A program made the position numbers and the translations under genes. The notes under the pieces are model-generated. The model saw only the letters and a list, made by a program, of their open reading frames with translations, did not search any database and was not told the DNA's origin. This document shows positions 31,411 through 43,053 of a DNA stretch of 43,831 bases, piece after piece. Origin of the DNA: Bacteroidia bacterium (lineage in GTDB: Bacteria > Bacteroidota > Bacteroidia > Cytophagales > Cyclobacteriaceae); NCBI GenBank assembly GCA_030430675.1, contig JAUIKU010000012.1, forward strand, positions 1 to 43,831, in the 5' to 3' direction. How positions within the stretch are numbered: the stretch's first letter is position 1; every line of letters begins with the position of its first letter.

Positions 31411-32292
31411 TTATTTGTTCAATACGCTGCGTTCCAGGTATTCGATGATCTTTCCGGCAATGTTTTTACCGGTGGCGGTTTCAATACCTTCCAGACCGGG
31501 AGAAGAGTTCACCTCGATGATTAAAGGACCGCGATCCGACCGCAACATATCAACCCCTGCTACACCCAGTCCCATGGCCTCGGCAGCCTGGATGGCAGTA
31601 GCTTCTTCTTCCGGTGTAAGTTCAATAAGACTGGCACTACCTCCACGATGCAGATTTGATCTAAACTCTCCTTCTGGCGCCTGTCGCAACATGGCCCCAA
31701 TTACCCGGCCATCCACTACCAAAACCCGAAGGTCAGAGCCATGTGCTTCCGCAATAAATTCCTGAACAATAATGCGAGCCTTTAACCCGTTGAACGCTTC
31801 AATCACCGATGCTGCCGCCTTTCGGTTTTCTGCCAGCACCACCCCCAGGCCCTGAGTACCTTCCAGAAGTTTGACTACCAGTGGGACTCCTCCAACCGAC
31901 CTGATCACCTCATTTACATCACGACTGTAATTGGTAAATACGCTCTTGGGAATACCCAATCCGGCCCTGGCCAGTATTTGTAAGCTTCTCAGTTTATCTC
32001 TTGAGCGCATTAGTGCCTGACTTTGTACCGCAGTGAATATATCTCTCATCTCGAATTGACGGATTACTGCAGATCCATAGAAGGTAACTGATGCACCGAT
32101 CCTGGGGATCACTGCATCGGTATCATCCAGGGAACGTCCCATATATTTTATATGCGGGTTTTGCTTTTCATTGATAAGGTCACATTTCAAATGATCCACT
32201 ACTTCAACGCTGTGGCCTCTTTCCATACCAGCTTCAACCAGCCTTCTGGTGGAATAGAGGTTACCGTTGGTAGAAAGTATTACAATCTTCAC
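31411..32292 (-). CDS. rimK: RimK-family ATP-grasp alpha-L-glutamate ligase
   Basis: The 293-residue ATP-grasp protein has RimK motifs. They are the N-terminal [39 protein letters not shown] and [19 protein letters not shown]. The C-terminal metal-binding [16 protein letters not shown] is also present. RimK adds glutamate residues to the C terminus of ribosomal protein S6; other members act on small molecules or coenzymes, so the substrate is not certain. It overlaps the upstream protease gene by 4 bases (ATGA) and ends the seven-gene block. Confidence 0.9.
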
Positions 32293-32759
32293 TTTTTCTT
32301 TGATTTTCTGCGATATGAGAGGTTAGTCCTGGCAACATCAACGATGAATCTTCGATAGAGAAATTTCCTGCCCAGTAGCACCGGAAAGGTTAAGTTGCCG
32401 CGATAACTGAGAGAAAACTCCGTACGTCTTTCCTTTCCAAATAAAATTACAGAGGTTGAAATAACAAAGCGTTTCTCACTGGCACCGAAACTGTTCTTTA
32501 CAGTGCGTCTCTTGAAGTCACTAAAAAAAAAGCTTTTATTGTCATAGTTGGGGTGAGATGGGTCTAACAATATAAAATGAAGCATTTTTTTATTGTTCTT
32601 TTTGACCAGTTCGATATGGTGGCAATGAATAGCGCTGCCATCCGCCCCGGTATCTATCTTGGCATCTATGTCAAACAAGGCCATTTCGGGCAGGTCTATC
32701 TTGTCATACCGGCCAATAATGGTTTTAGAAATAGGTTTTACTTTTCCGGTGTTCCTCAT
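32289..32759 (-). CDS. rimB: RimB-like retropepsin (ATP-dependent zinc protease family)
   Basis: The 156-residue protein has the active-site motif [10 protein letters not shown] with Asp36, and a later strand motif [16 protein letters not shown]. This is the retropepsin-like family annotated as ATP-dependent zinc protease (PF05618). Its Pseudomonas member RimB is encoded with rimK and acts on RimK-modified S6. The close pairing with rimK (4-base overlap) supports the same role here. A 5-base gap separates it from the mscS gene upstream. The gene symbol is by context and motif, not proven orthology. Confidence 0.87.
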
Positions 32760-32764
32760 ACTGT

Positions 32765-33796
32765 TTAAAAGAGGTCCTTGGGATCGACCAGTTTTTGCTG
32801 AACCAATTGGTTGATGACAATCTCGGTCATATCGCTTTTGAAATTGAATTCATCGCGAATATCCATGACGTAGGCTTTTATACGCATCTTGAGATAAGAA
32901 CGGCGTTCATGAATTTCATTGAAGAACAACACTCTGATAGGTTTGTTCAGGTATATGTATTTTGACACCTGAGCTGTTTCCAGCGCTATTTTCCTTACTT
33001 TGTCTGTATCAATGGTGATGGGTAAAAAGATCTCAGCCACTACCTGGCAATTGGTTTCGCCGGCGTTCGCATTTGACACAGCCTGGTTCATCATTTCTCC
33101 ATTGGGAATGCTAACCAATGAGTCATCCGGAGTTACTACCTGGGTTGATCTAAGGCCAATTTCCTTCACCTCACCATAGTATTTGCCTATTTCTACTTTG
33201 TCTCCCACTTTGAAAGGCCGGTCGATTATGATAATTAACCCCCCAAAAATATTGCGAAGGATGTCCTGCGAAGCAAATCCCACTGCGATACCAATCGAAG
33301 CAGCTACTGCCAATACCGTTTCCGCAGGGGGGTTAATTACCCCTCCCACCACGACATAGGTGGCAAATATCCATCCCAATACCCTGAGAATAGGAATGAA
33401 CCCCTTGACCGTGATTCGGTAACGGACGGTACGTTCGGCTATTATATTCAACAACCGGGTAACCGCCATTATGATGAAGTAGGTGAATACCAGGAACATC
33501 ACCGACCAGATGATTTTTCCTACCGAAATCACTTTCAATACGGACCGGGGGTCTACTTTATCATCCTCAGATTCTTCCGAAGTATTGGTATTGAGATCTT
33601 CGGCAATGGATCTTTCTGCCACAAAGATGGTATCCGTGTGATGAATTACTACCGTATCTGAATTGGACAAGTAGATATGCACGGTAGAGTCGGCATAGAC
33701 CAACGTATCGCTTACGGCCTGTGCCAAACCGGTTTGCACACAAAGCGACAGGCAAAACAGCCAAACAGTTAAAAAGAATCGCCTCCGTATTTTCAT
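32765..33796 (-). CDS. Small-conductance mechanosensitive channel, MscS family
   Basis: The 343-residue protein has a signal peptide (about 1-25), a threonine/aspartate-rich periplasmic part, and three transmembrane helices near 95-117, 132-153 and 162-192. The pore helix is AAASIGIAVGFASQDILRNI, followed by FGGLIIIIDRPFKVGD and the cytoplasmic beta-domain (STQVVTPDDSLVSIPNGEMM), diagnostic for MscS. The C-terminal vestibule domain is present, so the protein looks complete. The start ATG overlaps the stop of the upstream NTPase-like gene by one base (TGATG), which suggests coupled translation and a physical or functional link. Confidence 0.93.
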   Translation of the reverse strand: MKIRRRFFLTVWLFCLSLCVQTGLAQAVSDTLVYADSTVHIYLSNSDTVVIHHTDTIFVAERSIAEDLNTNTSEESEDDKVDPRSVLKVISVGKIIWSVMFLVFTYFIIMAVTRLLNIIAERTVRYRITVKGFIPILRVLGWIFATYVVVGGVINPPAETVLAVAASIGIAVGFASQDILRNIFGGLIIIIDRPFKVGDKVEIGKYYGEVKEIGLRSTQVVTPDDSLVSIPNGEMMNQAVSNANAGETNCQVVAEIFLPITIDTDKVRKIALETAQVSKYIYLNKPIRVLFFNEIHERRSYLKMRIKAYVMDIRDEFNFKSDMTEIVINQLVQQKLVDPKDLF

Positions 33797-36700
33797 CAGT
33801 GTATAATGTTCTTGTCTTTCAAAAGATGCAATACCTGCCGAAAAAGCAAAGGATTGATATAGAACCTGCTCTCATTTTGAACCACCAGGCCATCATCAAA
33901 CAAAGTGAGCAGCGTCATCTTACTTTTCTCTGGATTTTGGTTAAACACCTTGGCATGATCTTGTATACTAATACCATCATGCAGCAGCATACTGTTCATG
34001 GTGAATGTTTTCTCCTCGGAAAGGTTCTTTAAGAAGGAAGTATCGATACCTTTCAAAGACCTGATATGCATCACGTCGCCCTCAATTTCAATGATCGAAC
34101 GCAGCCAGTATACCAGTGCCAGACTGGCATTACCGCTGACTATATTGTTTAGGGTACTGATATACTCACTTTGTAAGTATGCCTGCCGTTCTTCCTCATT
34201 CATTTTCTTGAACTTGGCTAGTTTTCTGTCCTGTTTATGCGCCTTAAACAACAGGTTGAAACCGCTGACCCGGTGCCTTTTCATTACCAGGGAGGTAACC
34301 TGCTCCGGTTTTAGCGGTCGCAGATCGATGTTGTAGGAAAAGCAATCATCAATGCCGGTAGTTTTCAGCAAATACTGGAAACTGTGTTGGTTAATGGTCA
34401 TCAACCAGAAGATATTGTCGTTGGTCCTGGTGAGCAGCTCCATAAATATTCTGATACAATCAAAACCGTTGACCCGACGCAGAAAAAAATGCTCCAGATC
34501 CTCAACCACGATTATTCGCTTTCCATCCAGCTGGTTAAGGTATTGCACCAGGGACTCTGTACTGTCAATTCCTTCGATATCCAATTGACTGCTAAAAAAT
34601 TGGAAAAACTGTGCTTCCTGATATATCTGCCGGTCGGTATTCAGCCAGATGGTCTGGTAGGGACTCTTCAATTCTTTTAGAAAAAACCTGACCAGGGTAG
34701 TGGCTCCACTGCCTGCCTCGGCAATCAAGGCGGTACCGCCATAATGGCCAACTTCCCAATTTTCATAGGCCTTTTTAAGGTCCAGATTGGCACGTGGTCT
34801 GGGTTCATAGAAAAACACATTTTCCAAAGGACTGATCTCAAATAACCTCTGGTAAACAAAAGGCAATTTCTTTACATTCTTGTCCGTATCGGATAAAAAT
34901 CCTGCCACTTCTGCCGTCAGTGATTTGGTGGAAGTCCCGATACCGTATTTCAAGGAGGTATCTCTATACCGTTTGTAAATCATCAGCCAACGACGCTTAC
35001 AATAGGTGATCAGGCGTGGAACAAATTCCTGGAATTTGGCCAGGTATTCCCGCCGTAAGGCCCTGGCCCTCTCCATGGCCATGGCCTTGGCAATTCTAAC
35101 CTGGGTGTCAAATACCTGGTCGATTTCATTCAACGCCATAATTTGTTCATTGAAATCATCCACCGCGGGGCGTATAATTTCCTCTGCTTCGGGTATCATG
35201 TCCTGAAGCTCTTTTACAATATCCTGAAGCCGGCTATGCGCCCGTTCTATTCCTTCGATGGACATGGCTTTGGCTTTGTCGTGCTGTGAGGCATCATCCA
35301 TTGCTGCCAGGGCGGTCTCCAGGTTGAAGTCACATATATTGGAGATCTCCATCAGTTGTTGCTGGGTGGATTCAACCACATCATTTACCGATTTTTCCAC
35401 CGACTGGATCTTACTGAGATATTGGGGCAGCGCTTCAAAAGTAATGAGATCTTTGGGGGCAATCTGATCTATCTCCGATTCTTTGATGGCATGCTCATAG
35501 CTTATGTTCTTAACCATGGAGCGGGTTTCGGAGAGTTGGGCAATTTCCGATTTGGTTTTAGCTTCCAGGTTTTCTACCAGCTGAGGGATCTTCTGCTCCC
35601 TGATTAGCTGTATACAACCAGGTATGGCCCTCTTTAAGTATCTGGAGGTTTCGAATCGCAGCTCATTCAGGGTCTTCTTGAAATCCTGATCCTTAGTGGA
35701 AGCCTGGCTCAGTTGAGATTCCTTTGAGGCCAGGAAAGTTGAAATTTTATCAAGTTCGATTAAAATCTTATCCGAAATCCTGGATTCTAGCTTTTGAATT
35801 AAAAACAGGTACTGTTCGAAAATGGTAAAGCGCGCATTGAACAGCTCGTGATCGAAATTATAGCGGTCCGAGAGTACCATTAATGTATTGCGCCATCCAT
35901 CCATGGTTTTTTGGTAAGACCTGGCGGCTCGCTTGTGTACAGCACTCAGTCCATCATCTTCAAAGGTTTTCACCGGTAGTTCAATAGTTCCTACCAGTTG
36001 GTAGTTTCGCTCGAAAATACCTTGGATGCGCTCCAGTCGACTTGCTGCTATTCCCCCAATGGATTCGGTCAGCTCCCTGATGGTTGACAGTACCTTATCT
36101 ATTTCTTCCCGCTGATCTTTCTGCTCAGGATTAGTTGTTTGCGCCGGTTCAGATTCCTTGCCTATCAGTCCGGCGAACTTTTCATTCATGCGAGCCTCCA
36201 CCTCATAAAGTTCATAGGTCGAAGCTGCAATGGCCCGGTTGATGGTTTGCACCATTTCAATTAACTGTTCCACCATCAGGTCCCTGAAGTGATAGGTTAT
36301 CATTCCTCTCAGGGGTACCTGGTGTTTCCACATTTTTAAAGGTATGGGTGACTTTCCGGCTTTTGACCTGACCCAATTGACGATCCTGTAAGGAAACCAT
36401 CCCAACTTAAGTCCCCATTTTTTAAAAGACTTGCCAATCTTTATTCTTAATGGATCCTCGGAGAACCTTTGAAAACGGTCCAGACTTTGGTCTTCAAGCA
36501 GGGAACCGGGAAGGGTATCAACGTAAGATTGCAGATGGCTAAAGTATTCACTAAACTCCTCATCGAGATCTACTTCTTCAGGGATAATCTTTAGTTCATT
36601 AACCGACTTGGCTAAAAGTTCCTTTCGCGCTTTTATTCTCCGTACATTCTCTAATACTTTGATCTTTGTACCCTGTTGATCAACTTTTCCGGTACTGCTT

Positions 36701-36828
36701 TGCAAATTCTCCCGTACCTGACTGATGAACTGCTGTTGCGCTTCCAGTTTCTCTGTCAAAACCGGTGTCAAATAGGTCAGCACCAACTCCTGGATATGTT
36801 GATAATACTGTTGTTGTTGCTGTTTCAT
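33796..36828 (-). CDS. Large coiled-coil NTPase-like protein coupled to MscS channel
   Basis: The 1010-residue protein starts with MKQQQQQYYQHI and has no clear transmembrane helix. About residues 1-640 are long heptad-like helical segments, interrupted near 130-175 by a basic, tryptophan-containing stretch that could contact membranes. Near 700-712 a P-loop-like sequence ALIAEAGSGATTLVRFFL occurs, with alanine at the position of the P-loop lysine. A Walker-B-like RIIVVEDLEHFFL lies at about 768-780, followed by an arginine/lysine-rich segment LRPLKPEQVTSLVMKRHRVS, as in AAA+/STAND-type domains. The C-terminal end resembles a winged-helix region. I do not recognise the family. Context suggests a regulator or scaffold of the channel. 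Confidence 0.78.
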   Translation of the reverse strand: MKQQQQQYYQHIQELVLTYLTPVLTEKLEAQQQFISQVRENLQSSTGKVDQQGTKIKVLENVRRIKARKELLAKSVNELKIIPEEVDLDEEFSEYFSHLQSYVDTLPGSLLEDQSLDRFQRFSEDPLRIKIGKSFKKWGLKLGWFPYRIVNWVRSKAGKSPIPLKMWKHQVPLRGMITYHFRDLMVEQLIEMVQTINRAIAASTYELYEVEARMNEKFAGLIGKESEPAQTTNPEQKDQREEIDKVLSTIRELTESIGGIAASRLERIQGIFERNYQLVGTIELPVKTFEDDGLSAVHKRAARSYQKTMDGWRNTLMVLSDRYNFDHELFNARFTIFEQYLFLIQKLESRISDKILIELDKISTFLASKESQLSQASTKDQDFKKTLNELRFETSRYLKRAIPGCIQLIREQKIPQLVENLEAKTKSEIAQLSETRSMVKNISYEHAIKESEIDQIAPKDLITFEALPQYLSKIQSVEKSVNDVVESTQQQLMEISNICDFNLETALAAMDDASQHDKAKAMSIEGIERAHSRLQDIVKELQDMIPEAEEIIRPAVDDFNEQIMALNEIDQVFDTQVRIAKAMAMERARALRREYLAKFQEFVPRLITYCKRRWLMIYKRYRDTSLKYGIGTSTKSLTAEVAGFLSDTDKNVKKLPFVYQRLFEISPLENVFFYEPRPRANLDLKKAYENWEVGHYGGTALIAEAGSGATTLVRFFLKELKSPYQTIWLNTDRQIYQEAQFFQFFSSQLDIEGIDSTESLVQYLNQLDGKRIIVVEDLEHFFLRRVNGFDCIRIFMELLTRTNDNIFWLMTINQHSFQYLLKTTGIDDCFSYNIDLRPLKPEQVTSLVMKRHRVSGFNLLFKAHKQDRKLAKFKKMNEEERQAYLQSEYISTLNNIVSGNASLALVYWLRSIIEIEGDVMHIRSLKGIDTSFLKNLSEEKTFTMNSMLLHDGISIQDHAKVFNQNPEKSKMTLLTLFDDGLVVQNESRFYINPLLFRQVLHLLKDKNIIH

Positions 36829-36924
36829 ACCGGATAATCTGGATATTCAGATCCCACCAATGTGGACTATAGTATCTGTTTCAACTAAATATAATACACA
36901 GTGAGCGTTTTTCTAGGGAACGAA

Positions 36925-38226
36925 CTATTCCAAGTCCGGTCCACCAGGTGATTTTGGGGGTGGCGGGCTCAAATCCTCGGAGTGGTTTTCAACCGGCTGC
37001 TCCAAAATATTGTCAGATTCGGCTTCAGCTAACAATTCACCGGCGGTCTTCTCCTTTTCCCCGTTACTTTTGATCAGGCCATACATCATAATAAGGTTGC
37101 TGATGATAATGATCAGGAAAAGAATTGCCGGGCTAAAACCGGGAATCTGGTACTCCACAGGGATACTGTAAAATAGCAGGATGGTGATCAAACCCCGGGC
37201 TGCCACATATATTCCGGGAGCGAGCTGTTTGGGGGCGATAATTTTCAGGGCGCCCCAACGCAACAGATACATAATTGCCAGCGCCAGGAAAGCGATTACA
37301 AATACGGAAATCTGGTTAAAACCATCCAGCGTAATGGACATTCCGAATACGATGAAGAAAAACGTGCGGATCAAAAACGAGCTTTCCAGGGTGATCAGTT
37401 TTATTTCCGAAAGCAATTCCTTATACGCCTCAGGAATAATAAACTGCTTTAAAAAGCCTCTGAAGAACAGGCTGATATTGTTCAGCATCAAACCAAAAAT
37501 CAATACAAATATTAAGGACGACAGGTGAAACAATTTTCCAGAGGCATAGAGCAGCACCAGTACCGCTATGGGCAAGAATAATTTTACCTCACCGGTAACC
37601 TTTTGGATCAATATGATTACCAGATATCCAAAAACTACCGCAATAATGAGGGTTAGCACCAGGTTTTGTACTATGTGCAGGCTTATGGTACCGAAACCGT
37701 CCAGGTTTACCGTGTCCAGAATAAAATAGAACAGCATGATCCCCAGAATGTCGGAAAATGCCGACTCTACAATCAGGAACTCTTTTTTCTCTTCGATAAG
37801 ACCGGCTACGCTGGGTATAATTATGGCACTGCTCATAATTGAGAGTGGGATGGCGTAAACCACTGCTTCGAATCGTTCAACGGCGAAGAAGAAACGGAAG
37901 ATCAGGGCAATACCAAAGGTGGTCAGTAACAACAGAATTAGGGCAATAACCAGCGATTTCCCCAACATACTGGCCTTGCTTTTTTCCAGGCGCAGGTCCA
38001 GAGCCGCTTCCAGAACGATCATCACCAAACCCACAGTACCCAGAATCTCCAATACCGGCCTTAATGTTTCTTCATCAAACCCGATAAACAGGCTGATGCA
38101 GAAGCCGGTTACAATCAGCATCAGCACAGATGGAATATTGGTCTTTTCGGCAAGTGCATTGTAGAAATACGACAGCAGGATTACTACCGAGGCTGCAATA
38201 AGGATCCAGTATACGTTGAATTCCAT
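36925..38226 (-). CDS. Cation:proton antiporter (CPA family)
   Basis: The 433-residue protein has about 12 membrane helices, with the core motif FLIVESAFSDILGIMLFYFI replacing the usual N-D/D-D pair (here S-D). A long charged C-terminal tail of about 50 residues is acidic, then proline-rich (LSPPPPKSPGGPD). It is expected to exchange Na+ or K+ for H+. The stop-to-start gap to trkH is 2 bases, so it is probably in one operon with trkH and trkA. The 96 bases downstream lead to the NTPase-like gene and contain a near-consensus -7 sequence (minus-strand TATATTTA, 36886-36893). Confidence 0.9.
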   Translation of the reverse strand: MEFNVYWILIAASVVILLSYFYNALAEKTNIPSVLMLIVTGFCISLFIGFDEETLRPVLEILGTVGLVMIVLEAALDLRLEKSKASMLGKSLVIALILLLLTTFGIALIFRFFFAVERFEAVVYAIPLSIMSSAIIIPSVAGLIEEKKEFLIVESAFSDILGIMLFYFILDTVNLDGFGTISLHIVQNLVLTLIIAVVFGYLVIILIQKVTGEVKLFLPIAVLVLLYASGKLFHLSSLIFVLIFGLMLNNISLFFRGFLKQFIIPEAYKELLSEIKLITLESSFLIRTFFFIVFGMSITLDGFNQISVFVIAFLALAIMYLLRWGALKIIAPKQLAPGIYVAARGLITILLFYSIPVEYQIPGFSPAILFLIIIISNLIMMYGLIKSNGEKEKTAGELLAEAESDNILEQPVENHSEDLSPPPPKSPGGPDLE

Positions 38227-38228
38227 AG

Positions 38229-39686
38229 CTAGTTTCTTGTCCAGAAATAGGGTGTAATGAGAATTAGTACCGTAAACAATTCAAGTCTTCCCAGCAGCAT
38301 CAGAAAAGACAGAAACCATTTTCCAACAGCTGGCAAATGGGCAAAATTATTAACCGGCCCCACTGACCCAAATCCAGGTCCAATGTTCCCCAGGGAAGTG
38401 GCCACACTGCCCAATGCGGTGACAAAATCAACCCCTATAAGACCCATGATAAATATACTTATCATGTATATAGTAAGGTAGATCATGATAAAACCCAGCA
38501 CGTTGGAGGTGATTTCCGGACTGACAGCTTTGCTGTTTAACCTTACCGGTATTATGGCGGAAGGATGAATTTGCCGTTTTAGTTCAAGTATACCATTTTT
38601 TAGCAATAAAACGTGCCGTACGATCTTTACTCCACCGGCGGTAGAACCTGCAGAAGCTCCCAAAAACATAAACATAAAAAACAAAAGAGACAGCGCCGGT
38701 CCCCAGAGCGTGTAGTCTGCCGAGACAAATCCTGTGGTGGTAATTATGGATACAACCTGGAATAAAGCATCCCTAAAAGATTGTTCGACGCCGCTGTCCG
38801 AATGAAAATAGACACCGACGGAAACAATTACCCCCAGCAGCAGTGTGCCCAGCGAATACACCCTGAACTCCTCATTGGCCCAAACCTTGTCGAACTTGCC
38901 TTTGAAACCAAAGTAAGTCAAGGTAAAGCTCGTTCCTGCCAGGAACATAAAAAGTATTATAACATATTGAATATAAGGTGAACTGTAATAGGCAATACTG
39001 TCCTGTTTGGTAGAGAAACCTCCGGTAGCCATGGTGGTAAGGCTGTGGTTCAGCGCGTCAAATACCGACATGCCACCCAGCAACAGCAAGACGAATTCAG
39101 CACAGGTCAATCCAACATAGATAATCCATAACCTGCGGGCAGTGGCGGTAATCCGGGGCTGTAACTTGTCGGGTTTTAGTCCGGGAGCCTCTGCCACAAA
39201 AAGCTGCATACCTCCAATCCCCAATAATGGCAGTATAGCTACTGCCAGTACTATAATTCCCATTCCTCCCATCCACTGGGTGAGACTTCTCCAAAACAGA
39301 ATTCCTTTGGGCAGTGATTCGATATCGTTGAGGATACTGGCTCCGGTAGTGGTAAATCCTGATAACGTCTCGAAAAATGCGTTGGTGAAGTTGGGGATAG
39401 CCCCTGAAAGTATATAGGGCAGGGTGCCAACCAGGGACATACTAAGCCACCCCAGGGTTACAATAAGGTAACCATCGCGTTTGCCCAGATTGTCGTCCAA
39501 CCTGTTGCGGGTAGTGGCCCACAATGTTGCTCCAATCAACGCTGAAAGCAGTCCGGAAATGATCAATGGAATCACCCCTCCCTCCCGGAAAATAAGTGAT
39601 ACCGGCAAACACAGCAGCATAAACCCACCATTGATAATCAATAGAATCCCCAATAGGTTGGCTATTATCTTTAGGTTGAGTTTCAT
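38229..39686 (-). CDS. trkH: Trk-type K+ transport membrane subunit
   Basis: The 485-residue protein is a complete TrkH/KtrB-type channel subunit. It has four pore loops whose filter sequences can be read: SGFTTTGAS near 109-117, TTMATGGFS, IITTTGFVS and SLGNIGPGF. About ten to twelve membrane helices are predicted by hydrophobicity. It takes up K+ in concert with a TrkA-type regulator, which is encoded immediately upstream in the operon (9-base gap). Confidence 0.96.
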   Translation of the reverse strand: MKLNLKIIANLLGILLIINGGFMLLCLPVSLIFREGGVIPLIISGLLSALIGATLWATTRNRLDDNLGKRDGYLIVTLGWLSMSLVGTLPYILSGAIPNFTNAFFETLSGFTTTGASILNDIESLPKGILFWRSLTQWMGGMGIIVLAVAILPLLGIGGMQLFVAEAPGLKPDKLQPRITATARRLWIIYVGLTCAEFVLLLLGGMSVFDALNHSLTTMATGGFSTKQDSIAYYSSPYIQYVIILFMFLAGTSFTLTYFGFKGKFDKVWANEEFRVYSLGTLLLGVIVSVGVYFHSDSGVEQSFRDALFQVVSIITTTGFVSADYTLWGPALSLLFFMFMFLGASAGSTAGGVKIVRHVLLLKNGILELKRQIHPSAIIPVRLNSKAVSPEITSNVLGFIMIYLTIYMISIFIMGLIGVDFVTALGSVATSLGNIGPGFGSVGPVNNFAHLPAVGKWFLSFLMLLGRLELFTVLILITPYFWTRN

Positions 39687-39695
39687 GGATGGCGA

Positions 39696-41036
39696 CTATT
39701 TGAACAGGCGTTCCACTTTGGCAATGCATTCCGGTTTACTCAGAACCACTACCCGGTCTTTTGGTTTGAATCTAAATCCACCCATAGTGGTATGCCCCTG
39801 ACCTTTTCGGATTACCCCTCCCACGATTGCAGATTTAGGAAAATCAACGTCCTTCAATTCGCGTTCAACAATTTTGGAAGACTCCGTTACTTCGTATTCC
39901 AGGATCTCTGCGTCAACGCCATGGATACTGGTAAGATCAAGTACTTCTCCCTGGCGGATGTACCGGAAGGTAAAATTGGCTGCAATAAGCTTTTTATTGA
40001 TCATGGTATCCACTCCCACATTTTGTGACAGATGAATGTAATCGATGTTCTCAACCAGGGCAATGGTTTTGGGAACTCCCTGATTTTTGGCCAGCAGACA
40101 GGAAATAATATTGCTTTCTGAGTTGCCGGTAACCGCAATGAAGGCATCCATTTCGGCGATACCTTCGGATTTAAGCAGGTCTACATCACTGCCATCGGCA
40201 TTAATGATCAACGTACCCGGTAACTTGTCTGCCAGCTCAAAGCATTTCTCCTTGTCCTTTTCGATCATCTTAACATGGTACTTAATGCTTAGTTTGCGTG
40301 CGGTATGAAAACCAATTTTGCTGCCACCCAGTACCATTACATTCTTAATATTGCGACGTTCCCTGGGGGTAAAACTCAGTACTCTTTCAAAGCCTTCCGG
40401 TTCGGCAATAAAATAAGCATGATCATTCAGGTGAAATACCGTGTTGCCCCGGGGGATGATGGTTTCGTTATTGCGCAGGATGGCCACGGTAATAAAATTA
40501 TGATCGGGATTGAGGTGTGCCAGTTCCGCAATAGATTTGTTGTGCAGAACGCTCCCTTCATCTACGTTTATACCTACCAGAGTAAGCAGTCCGTAGTCAA
40601 AATCGAAAGTATCGGTGATAACGGTTTCTTTGAGCAGTCGTTTTATTTCCCGGGCCGCCAGCGATTCGGGAGATATTAACTCATCGATACCCATTTGCTT
40701 CAACGCGGTCTTTTCTTTTTTCAGCAGGAACTCTATGTTGCTGATCCTGGCCACGGTTCTTTTTGCACCCAGTTGTTTGGAAATAATAGCGGTGGCGATA
40801 TTGGTTTCTTCGGAGCTGGTCAAAGCCAGTACCAGGTTGGCCTTTGATACCTGGGCTTCTTCCAACACACTAAAATAGGTGGCGTTGCCATGGATCACTG
40901 CCACATCCATAGAATTAGCCACCTGGGAAAGTTTATCTTTATCGGTGTCGATTAATACGATATCCTGCTTTTCGAATGCCAGAAGCTTTGCCAAATGAAA
41001 GCCCACTTCTCCTGCACCCGCTATAATAATTCTCAT
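39696..41036 (-). CDS. trkA: Trk system K+ uptake regulatory protein
   Basis: The 446-residue cytoplasmic protein has two RCK halves. Each has a Rossmann NAD-binding domain: MRIIIAGAGEVGFHLAKLLA at the N terminus and NVMVLGGSKIGFHTARKLS in the middle (about residue 230). Each is followed by a TrkA_C-type region (YGLLTLVGINVDEGSVLHNK in the first half). This tandem layout is that of classic TrkA, which binds nucleotides and gates TrkH. It heads the block trkA-trkH-antiporter. Confidence 0.96.
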   Translation of the reverse strand: MRIIIAGAGEVGFHLAKLLAFEKQDIVLIDTDKDKLSQVANSMDVAVIHGNATYFSVLEEAQVSKANLVLALTSSEETNIATAIISKQLGAKRTVARISNIEFLLKKEKTALKQMGIDELISPESLAAREIKRLLKETVITDTFDFDYGLLTLVGINVDEGSVLHNKSIAELAHLNPDHNFITVAILRNNETIIPRGNTVFHLNDHAYFIAEPEGFERVLSFTPRERRNIKNVMVLGGSKIGFHTARKLSIKYHVKMIEKDKEKCFELADKLPGTLIINADGSDVDLLKSEGIAEMDAFIAVTGNSESNIISCLLAKNQGVPKTIALVENIDYIHLSQNVGVDTMINKKLIAANFTFRYIRQGEVLDLTSIHGVDAEILEYEVTESSKIVERELKDVDFPKSAIVGGVIRKGQGHTTMGGFRFKPKDRVVVLSKPECIAKVERLFK

Positions 41037-41167: not shown

Positions 41168-41917
41168 TTAATTCTGGGCAGATTCTTCATCTGCGTAGTA
41201 CTGATCTTCCACGTATTTCAGTTTTTCCTTTATTTGCAGGATGTGTTCGTTGAGGGATTCGATCTTCTTATGCGATTCAGGGATTTCAGCTTCAAGTCTT
41301 TCAATATCCTCCAGGTTTTGTTGGTTCTTTCTTTCCATGTTGGCCCTTCGTTTGTCGTTGGTCTCCGTATTTAGCTTTTCTTCATTACGCGTGATCTGCC
41401 CGCGCATAGAGCCAATTGATTTTTCCGATTTCTCAATAGATTTTTCATAGTCGCTGATCTGCTTCATGTCCTCATCGATAATGTCGTTGTAGTAATGCAC
41501 ATAATGGAATCGCAGGTAATCCCGGGTAAATCGACGCAATCGCTCCATCTCTTCCGGATAATCATCCGGGTTGATCCAAACGTCATAACCCAGCAGCAGA
41601 GACAGCCCCAGTTTATTCCGGTCTCCTTCCGTGTAAAAAGTAATTCTCAGATCGCCCCTTTTGTCCGTAACCTGGGGAATACTCACTTTCTCCAGAAGTT
41701 CTTCATTTTTACCGTCGTTCTGGCTTCTGCTGCCAAACTCCTGTTTGGTAAAGTCTTCGAAGGTATCCTCATAAAAACTCATATCATCGTTGAGGTTGGC
41801 TGACCAAACATCGGCAGTAACATCCGACACCGGGATTTTACTGTGGGTTACCGTCAGATCCTGAGCACAAAGCGACCCAAAGAAGAATACGGCGCTAATG
41901 GTAGAGAGGAATTTCAT
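41168..41917 (-). CDS. Exported protein with C-terminal coiled coil
   Basis: From the ATG at 41917 the 249-residue protein has a signal peptide (MKFLSTISAVFFFGSLCA then Q). It has a central part (FYEDTFEDFTKQEFGSRSQN; VWINPDDYPEEMERLRRFTR) and then a long charged helix from about 150 to 240 rich in K/E with regular heptads, such as YEKSIEKSEKSIGSMRGQIT. The sequence suggests a periplasmic protein that dimerises by its coiled coil. I do not recognise a family. A frame beginning 21 bases upstream is possible, but it would put charges before the signal peptide. Confidence 0.72.
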   Translation of the reverse strand: MKFLSTISAVFFFGSLCAQDLTVTHSKIPVSDVTADVWSANLNDDMSFYEDTFEDFTKQEFGSRSQNDGKNEELLEKVSIPQVTDKRGDLRITFYTEGDRNKLGLSLLLGYDVWINPDDYPEEMERLRRFTRDYLRFHYVHYYNDIIDEDMKQISDYEKSIEKSEKSIGSMRGQITRNEEKLNTETNDKRRANMERKNQQNLEDIERLEAEIPESHKKIESLNEHILQIKEKLKYVEDQYYADEESAQN

Positions 41918-42048
41918 GTCGATTAATTTAATTCTCATTAGTGAGAAAACTCGTTTTAATAAAAATAACGAATTAATTCAAGTCTGTGGTAGTTTGAGGA
42001 TACTAACATTATACGCTAGTTTGGCCGGATTTTGTTAGATTGTAGATT

Positions 42049-43053
42049 ATGAAGTCCGCCGGGCTAAGAAAATTCATTATTTCAGCACTGCTATTGCTGT
42101 TTTCAATTACCACCGGTGTGGTGGGTTTTATGGCTTTGGAGGGGTTTAACTTTTTGGACAGTATATACATGACTGTCATCACTCTCAGTACCGTTGGATT
42201 CAATGAAGTAGAGCCCCTTTCGAATACCGGAAAGCTGTTTGCAACACTATACATTCTCTTCAATATTGGTATTTTTGCGTACATCGTTTCTACCATTACC
42301 ACCTATCTTTTTGAAGGAGAGCTTCAAAAGATATTTAAAAATATCATGTTTGGCCGAGAAGTGAAGAAATTGAAGAATCACGTTATTGTCTGCGGCTATG
42401 GCCGCAACGGTTCACGTGCCTGTCTTGAATTTATAGACAATCAAACCCCATTTGTCATCATCGAAAAAGACCAGAGTATACTGGAGTTTTCGTCGGAATC
42501 AAGGCCACCGGTTATTGTTGGAGACGCCACATCGGACGACACGTTGGTGGAAGCGGGTATTCACAGGGCCCGGGCGCTGATTACCACATTGCCGGAAGAC
42601 GCCGATAATGTTTTTATTACCCTTACTGTCAAGGAACTCAATCCCGCCGTACGTGTTATTGCCAGGGCCTCCGACCTTAGTTCTGAGAAAAAATTGTTAC
42701 GTGCCGGTGCCAACCGGGTAGTGTTGCCCGATATTCTGGGCGGTATTCACATGGCTCAGCTTATCACCAAGCCCTATGTAGTTGAATTCCTGGAAATCCT
42801 AAACGGAATGGGTGAGGGGAATTTGAGGCTGGAAGATTATTCTTTTGAACAGTTGAAAGAACAACATCAGAATAAAACCCTCAATGAGCTCAAGATACAG
42901 GAAAACACCGGTGCCACGGTGGTTGGTATCAAGAATGACGACAAAGGTTTTATTTTTGGCCCCGATAGGGACCTGGTAATAGGTACCAGGGATATATTGA
43001 TTCTGCTGGGCTCTGAAGAAAGTCTAAAGCGTTTTAACAGCTACTGTAAATAG
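42049..43053 (+). CDS. Two-helix K+ channel with RCK (TrkA-N) domain
   Basis: The 334-residue protein has two membrane helices (about 9-31 and 62-86) flanking a pore loop with the filter sequence TVGF at 48-51 (STVGFNEVEPLS, in place of the canonical TVGYG). A cytoplasmic RCK domain follows, with HVIVCGYGRNG at 111-121, and a C-terminal TrkA_C part. This is the MthK/Kch plan, giving ligand- or nucleotide-gated K+ flow. The gene is divergent from the exported coiled-coil gene, and its stop is one base from the convergent purE stop. Confidence 0.93.
   Translation: MKSAGLRKFIISALLLLFSITTGVVGFMALEGFNFLDSIYMTVITLSTVGFNEVEPLSNTGKLFATLYILFNIGIFAYIVSTITTYLFEGELQKIFKNIMFGREVKKLKNHVIVCGYGRNGSRACLEFIDNQTPFVIIEKDQSILEFSSESRPPVIVGDATSDDTLVEAGIHRARALITTLPEDADNVFITLTVKELNPAVRVIARASDLSSEKKLLRAGANRVVLPDILGGIHMAQLITKPYVVEFLEILNGMGEGNLRLEDYSFEQLKEQHQNKTLNELKIQENTGATVVGIKNDDKGFIFGPDRDLVIGTRDILILLGSEESLKRFNSYCK

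Follow-up and report, generated by a model that had tools for sequence, protein, structure and literature searches.

The window analysed here is a stretch of 43,831 nucleotides that makes up an entire contig (JAUIKU010000012.1) of a 4.96-Mb draft genome of a Bacteroidia bacterium (Cyclobacteriaceae). It carries a gene for a 1010-residue protein, labelled BIG in this report, which is followed directly by a gene for a channel of the MscS family. BIG and MscS form a tightly paired two-gene unit. The pair lies in a row of seven open reading frames, all on the reverse strand, in the order trkA, trkH, cation/proton antiporter (CPA), BIG, MscS, rimB-like gene and rimK, with intergenic gaps of 9, 2, 96, −1, 5 and −4 bases. 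The initial annotation had described seven genes in this order and direction, with gaps mostly below 10 bases or negative apart from the 96 bases after the antiporter, and the open reading frames bear it out. Judging from gene arrangement and predicted structure, BIG is probably a cytoplasmic regulator or scaffold common to MscS and ion transporters, and the block would be an ion- and pressure-balance cluster around the BIG-MscS pair. The strictness of the pairing and the fusions of BIG to transporters carry most weight for a coupling of release to uptake by BIG.

BIG and its MscS partner

The BIG gene (33796..36828, reverse strand) overlaps by one base with the MscS gene (32765..33796, reverse strand), whose 343-residue product matches PF00924 with 76.1 bits (cut-off 20.2). 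Their neighbourhood was followed in two sets of loci. One comprises the best 80 of 108 matches of a search with stand-alone BIGs, fused BIGs not being in the set; the other consists of the window and 60 further loci, fused BIG types included. The two sets overlap (L123–L126 with G002, G001, G003 and G004; L186 and L192 with G029 and G020), and their counts were never summed. Neighbour labels were assigned with our own profiles, and unlabelled neighbour genes were only sampled with Pfam.

MscS is found directly 3′ of BIG on the same strand in all 80 loci of the first set; the two genes overlap in 27 of them and are separated by 0–20 bases in 44, by 21–60 in 6 and by more than 60 in 3. In the 61-locus set a same-strand MscS neighbour accompanies 56 BIG genes, behind BIG in 50 cases and in front of it in six (L111, L116–L119, L121). 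No open reading frame with both labels, as expected for an MscS-BIG fusion, occurs in either set.

The MscS linked to BIG belongs to a distinct subfamily. With a profile derived from the window protein, linked MscS proteins score at least 376 bits and non-adjacent MscS proteins of the same loci at most 164 (partial frames and extra BIG-adjacent MscS excluded). Another profile, A4, was built from 38 sequences picked by hand for spread from 78 linked MscS. It detects the subfamily, with scores of 186 bits or more, in 15 of 60 genomes of the family, and these are exactly the 15 with a stand-alone full-length BIG; among the matches listed, one or more to the MscS domain come from each of the 60 genomes. 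Such a distribution (15/15 vs 0/45) would have a probability of 1.9e-14 for independent genomes, a value not corrected for the kinship that exists among them. A sixteenth genome (G052) passes the search threshold with a different MscS type (110 bits), and six genomes with only distant or ~1700-residue BIGs (G008, G013, G023, G032, G039, G048) are devoid of the linked subfamily. Family genomes with a stand-alone BIG have a single BIG-MscS unit each, with a one-to-one partner. Identity to the window protein amounts to 42–74% for MscS (38 hand-picked sequences) versus 20–67% for BIG (74 sequences), MscS being the better conserved of the two; in the window MscS a conserved stretch on the cytosolic side covers residues ~285–325. 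In G007 the BIG-adjacent MscS is split across two frames (L045:14983-16022).

The predicted structure of the window MscS consists of a signal-peptide-like helix, a low-confidence segment (residues 24–78), three long helices, a beta domain and a C-terminal alpha/beta domain, and it matches MscK/MscS at 7e-16. The beta domain above its Pfam cut-off and the predicted fold, with transmembrane helices and a C-terminal alpha/beta part, are those of MscS/MscK channels. The differences are the N-terminal signal-peptide-like helix, the variable low-confidence segment and the assignment to a subfamily that is found in family genomes only together with BIG. MscS channels are usually regarded as lone tension valves. 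In the titles and abstract openings of open-licence papers, no pairing of MscS with an AAA+ protein was found.

BIG itself is present in 21 of 98 genomes (the genome of the window and its relatives), including five of five within the genus, the own genome counted. Across the phylum the BIG profile matches 76 of 395 genomes and 42 of 171 genera; an earlier profile, made from 17 BIGs, was discarded as too diverse for a genome scan. The 80-locus set is mostly composed of Bacteroidota (Cytophagales, Flavobacteriales, Bacteroidales, Saprospiraceae), and a few of its members are labelled Ignavibacteriaceae/Ignavibacteriales, Melioribacter, Calditrichaceae/Calditrichia, Gemmatimonadetes or Nitrospirota.

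Ion transporters fused to BIG or adjacent to it

Transporter genes are joined to BIG in two ways, as separate neighbours and as parts of the same polypeptide. The window represents the first. Its antiporter (36925..38226, reverse strand; 433 residues, 13 hydropathy peaks) matches the Na_H_Exchanger family (PF00999, 64 bits), and no NCBIfam model matches it. In L106, L107 and L108 the antiporter and BIG form one polypeptide of 1495–1501 residues with an N-terminal PF00999 match (68, 71 and 79 bits). Neither the window CPA query nor the CPA profile matches these N-termini, whose CPA identity comes from Pfam. The gene order of the three loci is membrane protein, CPA-BIG, MscS, TrkH and TrkA-like protein (the latter Pfam-checked in L106); in L108, TrkH is broken up into frames with stops. 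L114 shares this order, with a BIG whose N-terminus is rich in hydropathy peaks; in L115 the order is TrkA, TrkH, transmembrane-rich BIG and MscS. An antiporter identity of the BIG N-termini of L114 and L115 was not supported, as they give hydropathy peaks only and no Pfam match. The same applies to the upstream membrane proteins of 407–422 residues (L106:12688-13956, L107, L108, L114 and L115:15276-16499), which have 7–11 hydropathy peaks, match no Pfam family and possibly represent an undescribed exchanger-like family.

Fusion with a second, unrelated transporter family is observed in seven loci, where an SLC12-type transporter (PF00324, 161–174 bits) is joined to BIG in proteins of ~1700 residues. 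One of the seven lies on contig C237 of the window's own genome, which thus has a second BIG (1722 residues), followed by two MscS genes. Its N-terminal 500 residues match SLC12A2/NKCC1 chains (9e-72) and are alike to SLC12 transporters (NKCC/KCC); in contrast to these, its C-terminus is BIG, with a coiled coil and a P-loop, and not mixed alpha/beta, as the C-terminus of an archaeal cation-chloride cotransporter is described in the accessible part of PMC4301019. Involvement of SLC12 transporters in cell volume is stated in the accessible part of PMC7200160.

The Trk genes of the window are trkA (39696..41036, reverse strand), which encodes a 446-residue regulator of K+ uptake with two RCK (TrkA_N/TrkA_C) units (NF007038, 545 bits, cut-off 374), and trkH (38229..39686, reverse strand), which encodes the 485-residue transporter subunit (PF02386, 252 bits, cut-off 27). 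Window TrkH remains below the cut-offs of the NCBIfam TrkH models (400 of 866 and 328 of 331 bits). Both components are present and adjacent, as in Trk/Ktr uptake systems; unlike in these, the pair shares its block with CPA, BIG and MscS, and in other loci it accompanies a CPA-BIG fusion. Proximity of TrkH and RimB to BIG was estimated with 79 genomes, obtained from 96 BIG-positive ones by removal of 4 weak matches and 13 near-duplicates. Outside the genus, 7 of 74 genomes have TrkH at most 10 kb from BIG, compared with ~0.4 expected (a rough estimate that ignores kinship). Of the 24 family genomes with a window-type CPA, 10 have it no more than 10 kb from BIG, and five of these ten belong to the window genus. 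In Natronoflexus and Alkalitalea (L180, L185) an exchanger lies directly upstream of BIG-MscS, with a small opposite-strand frame between them in L180.

The exact order trkA-trkH-CPA-BIG-MscS-rimB-rimK is found in G001 and G003; G002 has no rimB, and the contig of G004 has neither rimB nor rimK. RimB was not found in the genomes of G002 and G004, which are 81% and 87% complete. Without insertions this order is confined to the genus. Interrupted by inserted genes, it is seen again in L127 and L128 (BIG only 44–45% identical), in the form coiled-coil protein, trkA, trkH, CPA, BIG, MscS, second exchanger, rimB, rimK and AstE-like gene (Pfam-checked in L128). The L127 cluster starts with an SLC12-type transporter and has a dehydrogenase and one further gene inserted after MscS. 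The comparison of gene order around BIG, which had been proposed with the initial annotation, thus finds the ion part of the block kept beyond close relatives, in L127 and L128 and in the CPA and SLC12 fusions. MscS, Trk, CPA and SLC12 proteins have known roles in osmotic function, hence the osmotic function proposed for the block. A role in ion balance, as far as gene arrangement can indicate one, is well supported.

RimB, RimK and glutamyl chemistry

The last two genes of the block encode a RimB-like protease and a RimK-type ligase. The former (32289..32759, reverse strand; 156 residues) is assigned by its PF05618 domain (72.8 bits, cut-off 27) and by the DTG motif of retropepsin-type proteases, contained in IDTGADGS. 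The latter (31411..32292, reverse strand; 293 residues, GTG start) is an alpha-L-glutamate ligase that exceeds the NCBIfam cut-off for S6--L-glutamate ligase (NF007764, 379 bits, cut-off 331). A glutamate ligase beside a retropepsin-like protease is also characteristic of the Pseudomonas RimABK/RloABC systems. The window pair differs from them in its linkage to BIG-MscS, in that no rimA or rloB was recognised in the block, and in the low score of the RimB-like protein against the NCBIfam RimB equivalog (59.7 bits, cut-off 200).

RimB is present in 12 and RimK in 13 loci of the 80-locus set. Two arrangements link them to BIG-MscS: downstream of MscS, as in the window, or upstream of BIG, as in Fulvivirga and its relatives (L129, L130, L132, L135, L136, L139, L143, L154), where the order is rimB, rimK, a gene for 313–322 residues, BIG and MscS. 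The gene between rimK and BIG is AstE/AspA-like in the relative L037. Of the 47 genomes outside the genus with RimB, 3 have it at most 10 kb from BIG (G040 and two members of a single genus, G452 and G181), compared with ~0.2 expected; with the two same-genus matches counted once, the probability of such proximity by chance is 0.02, a rough value for which kinship is ignored. RimB-RimK is a real but lineage-limited add-on to BIG-MscS, and these genes may add glutamyl chemistry to the block. An osmotic-response module that also adjusts protein glutamylation, suggested at the outset, is retained in part: ion linkage through BIG extends beyond the genus, whereas the Rim part is confined to certain lineages and the proposal on glutamylation is partly supported.

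Apart from the block, the SLC12-fused BIG of the same genome is followed at a distance of ~7 kb by a second RimK gene (C237, region of L049:6590-13451 and L122:1187-4121). An AstE-like gene (identified by eye) comes after this RimK, and a further MscS-like gene is oriented divergently from it. RimK is therefore found within 10 kb of either BIG in this genome.

Ribosomal protein S6 exceeded its cut-off in three of the five genomes searched, namely G016 (L203), G040 (L204) and G003 (L205), all of which carry RimK; its C-termini read EESAS, EEPAS and EEVAS, respectively, and do not end in Glu. In E. coli, S6 ends in Glu-Glu. Because the S6 of the three relatives does not end in Glu, its role as the RimK substrate there is doubtful. 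K05844, mentioned below, is taken by us to be rimK.

Instead of modifying S6, RimB-RimK, joined in several relatives by an AstE/AspA-type amidohydrolase, could make or trim poly-glutamate or glutamyl peptides that serve as K+ counter-ions or osmolytes. This is a tentative alternative, somewhat less than even in our estimate, and the S6 termini given above agree with it. RimK has an AstE-type gene next to it in L037 and L128, and so has, judged solely from position and by eye, the second RimK of the window's genome. Cleavage of poly-Glu by the RimB and RloA proteases is reported in the accessible text of PMC7343187 and PMC12239564; the former describes removal of poly-Glu tails from RpsF by RimB, and the latter ties the Rlo system to osmotic stress, the Pseudomonas RloA proteins, secreted relatives of RimB, being needed for hypo-osmotic tolerance. 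In the accessible part of PMC10219603, K05844 is among the glutamate-modification genes commoner in brackish than in marine genomes, and one of the references it cites deals with the synthesis of poly-alpha-glutamate by RimK; among the open-licence papers, so far as their text was available, PMC10219603 was the only relevant one for a tie between RimK and mechanosensitive channels. Against poly-glutamate stands the score of the window RimK above the S6--L-glutamate ligase cut-off; moreover, the search did not find S6 in the own genome.

The most inclusive form of the BIG-MscS proposal would make BIG a shared cytoplasmic turgor/ion controller of a kind not described before, acting in trans or fused, of a dedicated release valve and of opposing transporters (SLC12, CPA, Trk), with the glutamyl chemistry of RimB-RimK-AstE as an output arm in some lineages. 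In this full form it should be taken as speculative.

Fold of BIG and competing readings

BIG belongs to no NCBIfam or PADLOC family, and its best Pfam match (AAA_22, E-value 0.005) remains with 17.5 bits below the cut-off of 27. Since searches of the PDB by sequence gave nothing convincing (best E-value 0.087 for the single sequence and 0.18 for the profile), structural relatives are visible only by fold comparison. The AlphaFold2 model (75 sequences, mean pLDDT 87) predicts long helices and coiled coil up to residue ~650; an AAA+ domain with a winged helix makes up the rest. This 653–1010 part is closest to ORC/Cdc6 (7jgr_G: Z 15.6, rmsd 3.6, 241 aligned residues), TnsC and NSF; weaker Foldseek matches (E-value ~1e-5) are the STAND proteins EfAvs5 (9jap) and plant NLRs. 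BIG shares with ORC/Cdc6, TnsC and STAND AAA+ proteins the AAA+ core with a C-terminal winged helix; it differs in its 650-residue helical N-terminal part, in the frequent loss of the P-loop lysine, and in its linkage to ion channels and transporters, not to DNA. Truncated BIGs of 380–433 residues, essentially the AAA+ part, still precede MscS in L102, L103 and L104, which suggests that this part is what pairs with MscS.

The P-loop of the window BIG reads AEAGSGATTL and has no Walker A lysine. The residue is also missing from the six further BIGs of the window clade that were examined (L123–L128); in the alignment it is retained in 11 of 75 BIGs and lost in 64. By eye, it is kept in all 12 transporter-fused BIGs (seven SLC12-type, three Pfam-confirmed CPA and two transmembrane-rich ones without a Pfam match) and also in most BIGs of L085–L105. 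Nucleotide hydrolysis is therefore unlikely for the window BIG and plausible for those that retain the lysine. The initial annotation had called BIG an NTPase-like coiled-coil protein, which was right as to the fold and has to be corrected as to the lysine.

The following mechanism could be proposed. BIG would be a soluble cytoplasmic protein with a helical stalk and an AAA+/winged-helix head. It could bind to its MscS partner at the cytosolic part of the channel and to cation transporters (the CPA antiporter, the SLC12 cotransporter and perhaps Trk) at their cytosolic faces. Uptake and release of solutes would then be set jointly in response to changes in turgor, K+/Na+ or the state of nucleotides. 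Binding and hydrolysis of nucleotide may still be possible for the AAA+ head in several lineages; the window clade has lost the P-loop lysine, and its BIGs more likely serve as nucleotide sensors without hydrolysis or purely as scaffolds. TrkA/TrkH, CPA, SLC12, the second exchanger and RimB-RimK-AstE would be lineage-specific additions to the BIG-MscS core. What we infer for the block is that BIG touches its partners and regulates their gating or transport, that the trigger is osmotic and that the genes are co-transcribed. Regulation of ion transport by nucleotide-binding cytosolic parts is a known theme. Every part of the block has a known fold, and the earlier impression that their linkage through a large protein matches no described system stands, as none of the same make-up was found in the open-licence literature. 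Should the proposal be true, a valve would be wired to pumps in part of Bacteroidota and in some neighbouring phyla, and one device would set both influx and efflux. A large protein family without a name in the searched libraries would gain a function, and Fulvivirga would offer a cultivable host genus.

Several observations weigh against this role of BIG. The 80/80 pairing figure covers stand-alone BIGs only, and two of the MscS genes counted are short partial frames (L157, L164). In the 61-locus set, five BIG genes have no same-strand MscS neighbour (L047, L050, L052, L112, L120), and the MscS neighbour in L048 is just below the Pfam cut-off (19.8 of 20.2 bits). TrkH is present in just 6 of 80 loci, all in a single clade; because of this, and because membrane neighbours were just sampled with Pfam, the transporter link is recurrent and not general. 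Some of the Trk and CPA neighbours may reflect ordinary clustering of K+ genes. The 96-bp gap between CPA and BIG contains one promoter-like match, a weak one (9 of 12). In the same consensus scan, the block gave 19 promoter-like matches (19.5 in shuffles) and 18 terminator-like matches (11.3 in shuffles); none of the terminator-like matches listed falls between block genes, a result that cannot decide on a single transcript.

A rival reading is neighbourhood without interaction: BIG-MscS would be an old operon that acquired Trk, CPA and Rim genes because genes for osmotic stress are often co-regulated, and BIG would have a separate task, for instance in DNA or envelope biology. The resemblance of its AAA+ head to the DNA-bound initiators ORC/Cdc6 and TnsC, its terminal winged helix, and the absence of RimB, RimK and TrkH from most of the 80 loci would fit such a history. 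It is nevertheless unlikely, as it leaves unexplained why an MscS subfamily tracks BIG across genomes, why both gene orders exist (BIG-MscS in most loci, MscS-BIG in the six listed above), and why transporters of two unrelated families form fusions with BIG. A STAND-like defence system, in which the AAA+ protein senses phage and MscS permeabilises the membrane, is suggested by the Foldseek matches to STAND proteins and is very improbable: no PADLOC model matches BIG or its MscS (in PADLOC only a 256-residue coiled-coil protein encoded upstream of trkA matches, weakly, coiled-coil models, best 7e-5), family genomes have one unit each with a one-to-one partner, the unit stands beside housekeeping ion genes, fusions join BIG to SLC12 or CPA transporters, and most aligned BIGs have lost the P-loop lysine.

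The proposed ion- and pressure-balance cluster around BIG-MscS probably includes the gene of this 256-residue coiled-coil protein (41168..41938, reverse strand), which is located 131 bp upstream of trkA and has a signal-peptide-like N-terminus, recognised by eye. A homologue is found at the same place, directly upstream of trkA, in L124, L125, L127 and L128. The divergent neighbour (42049..43053, forward strand) encodes a 334-residue K+ channel with an RCK domain (Ion_trans_2, TrkA_N and TrkA_C in Pfam), and a homologue of it adjoins the cluster in L127 too.

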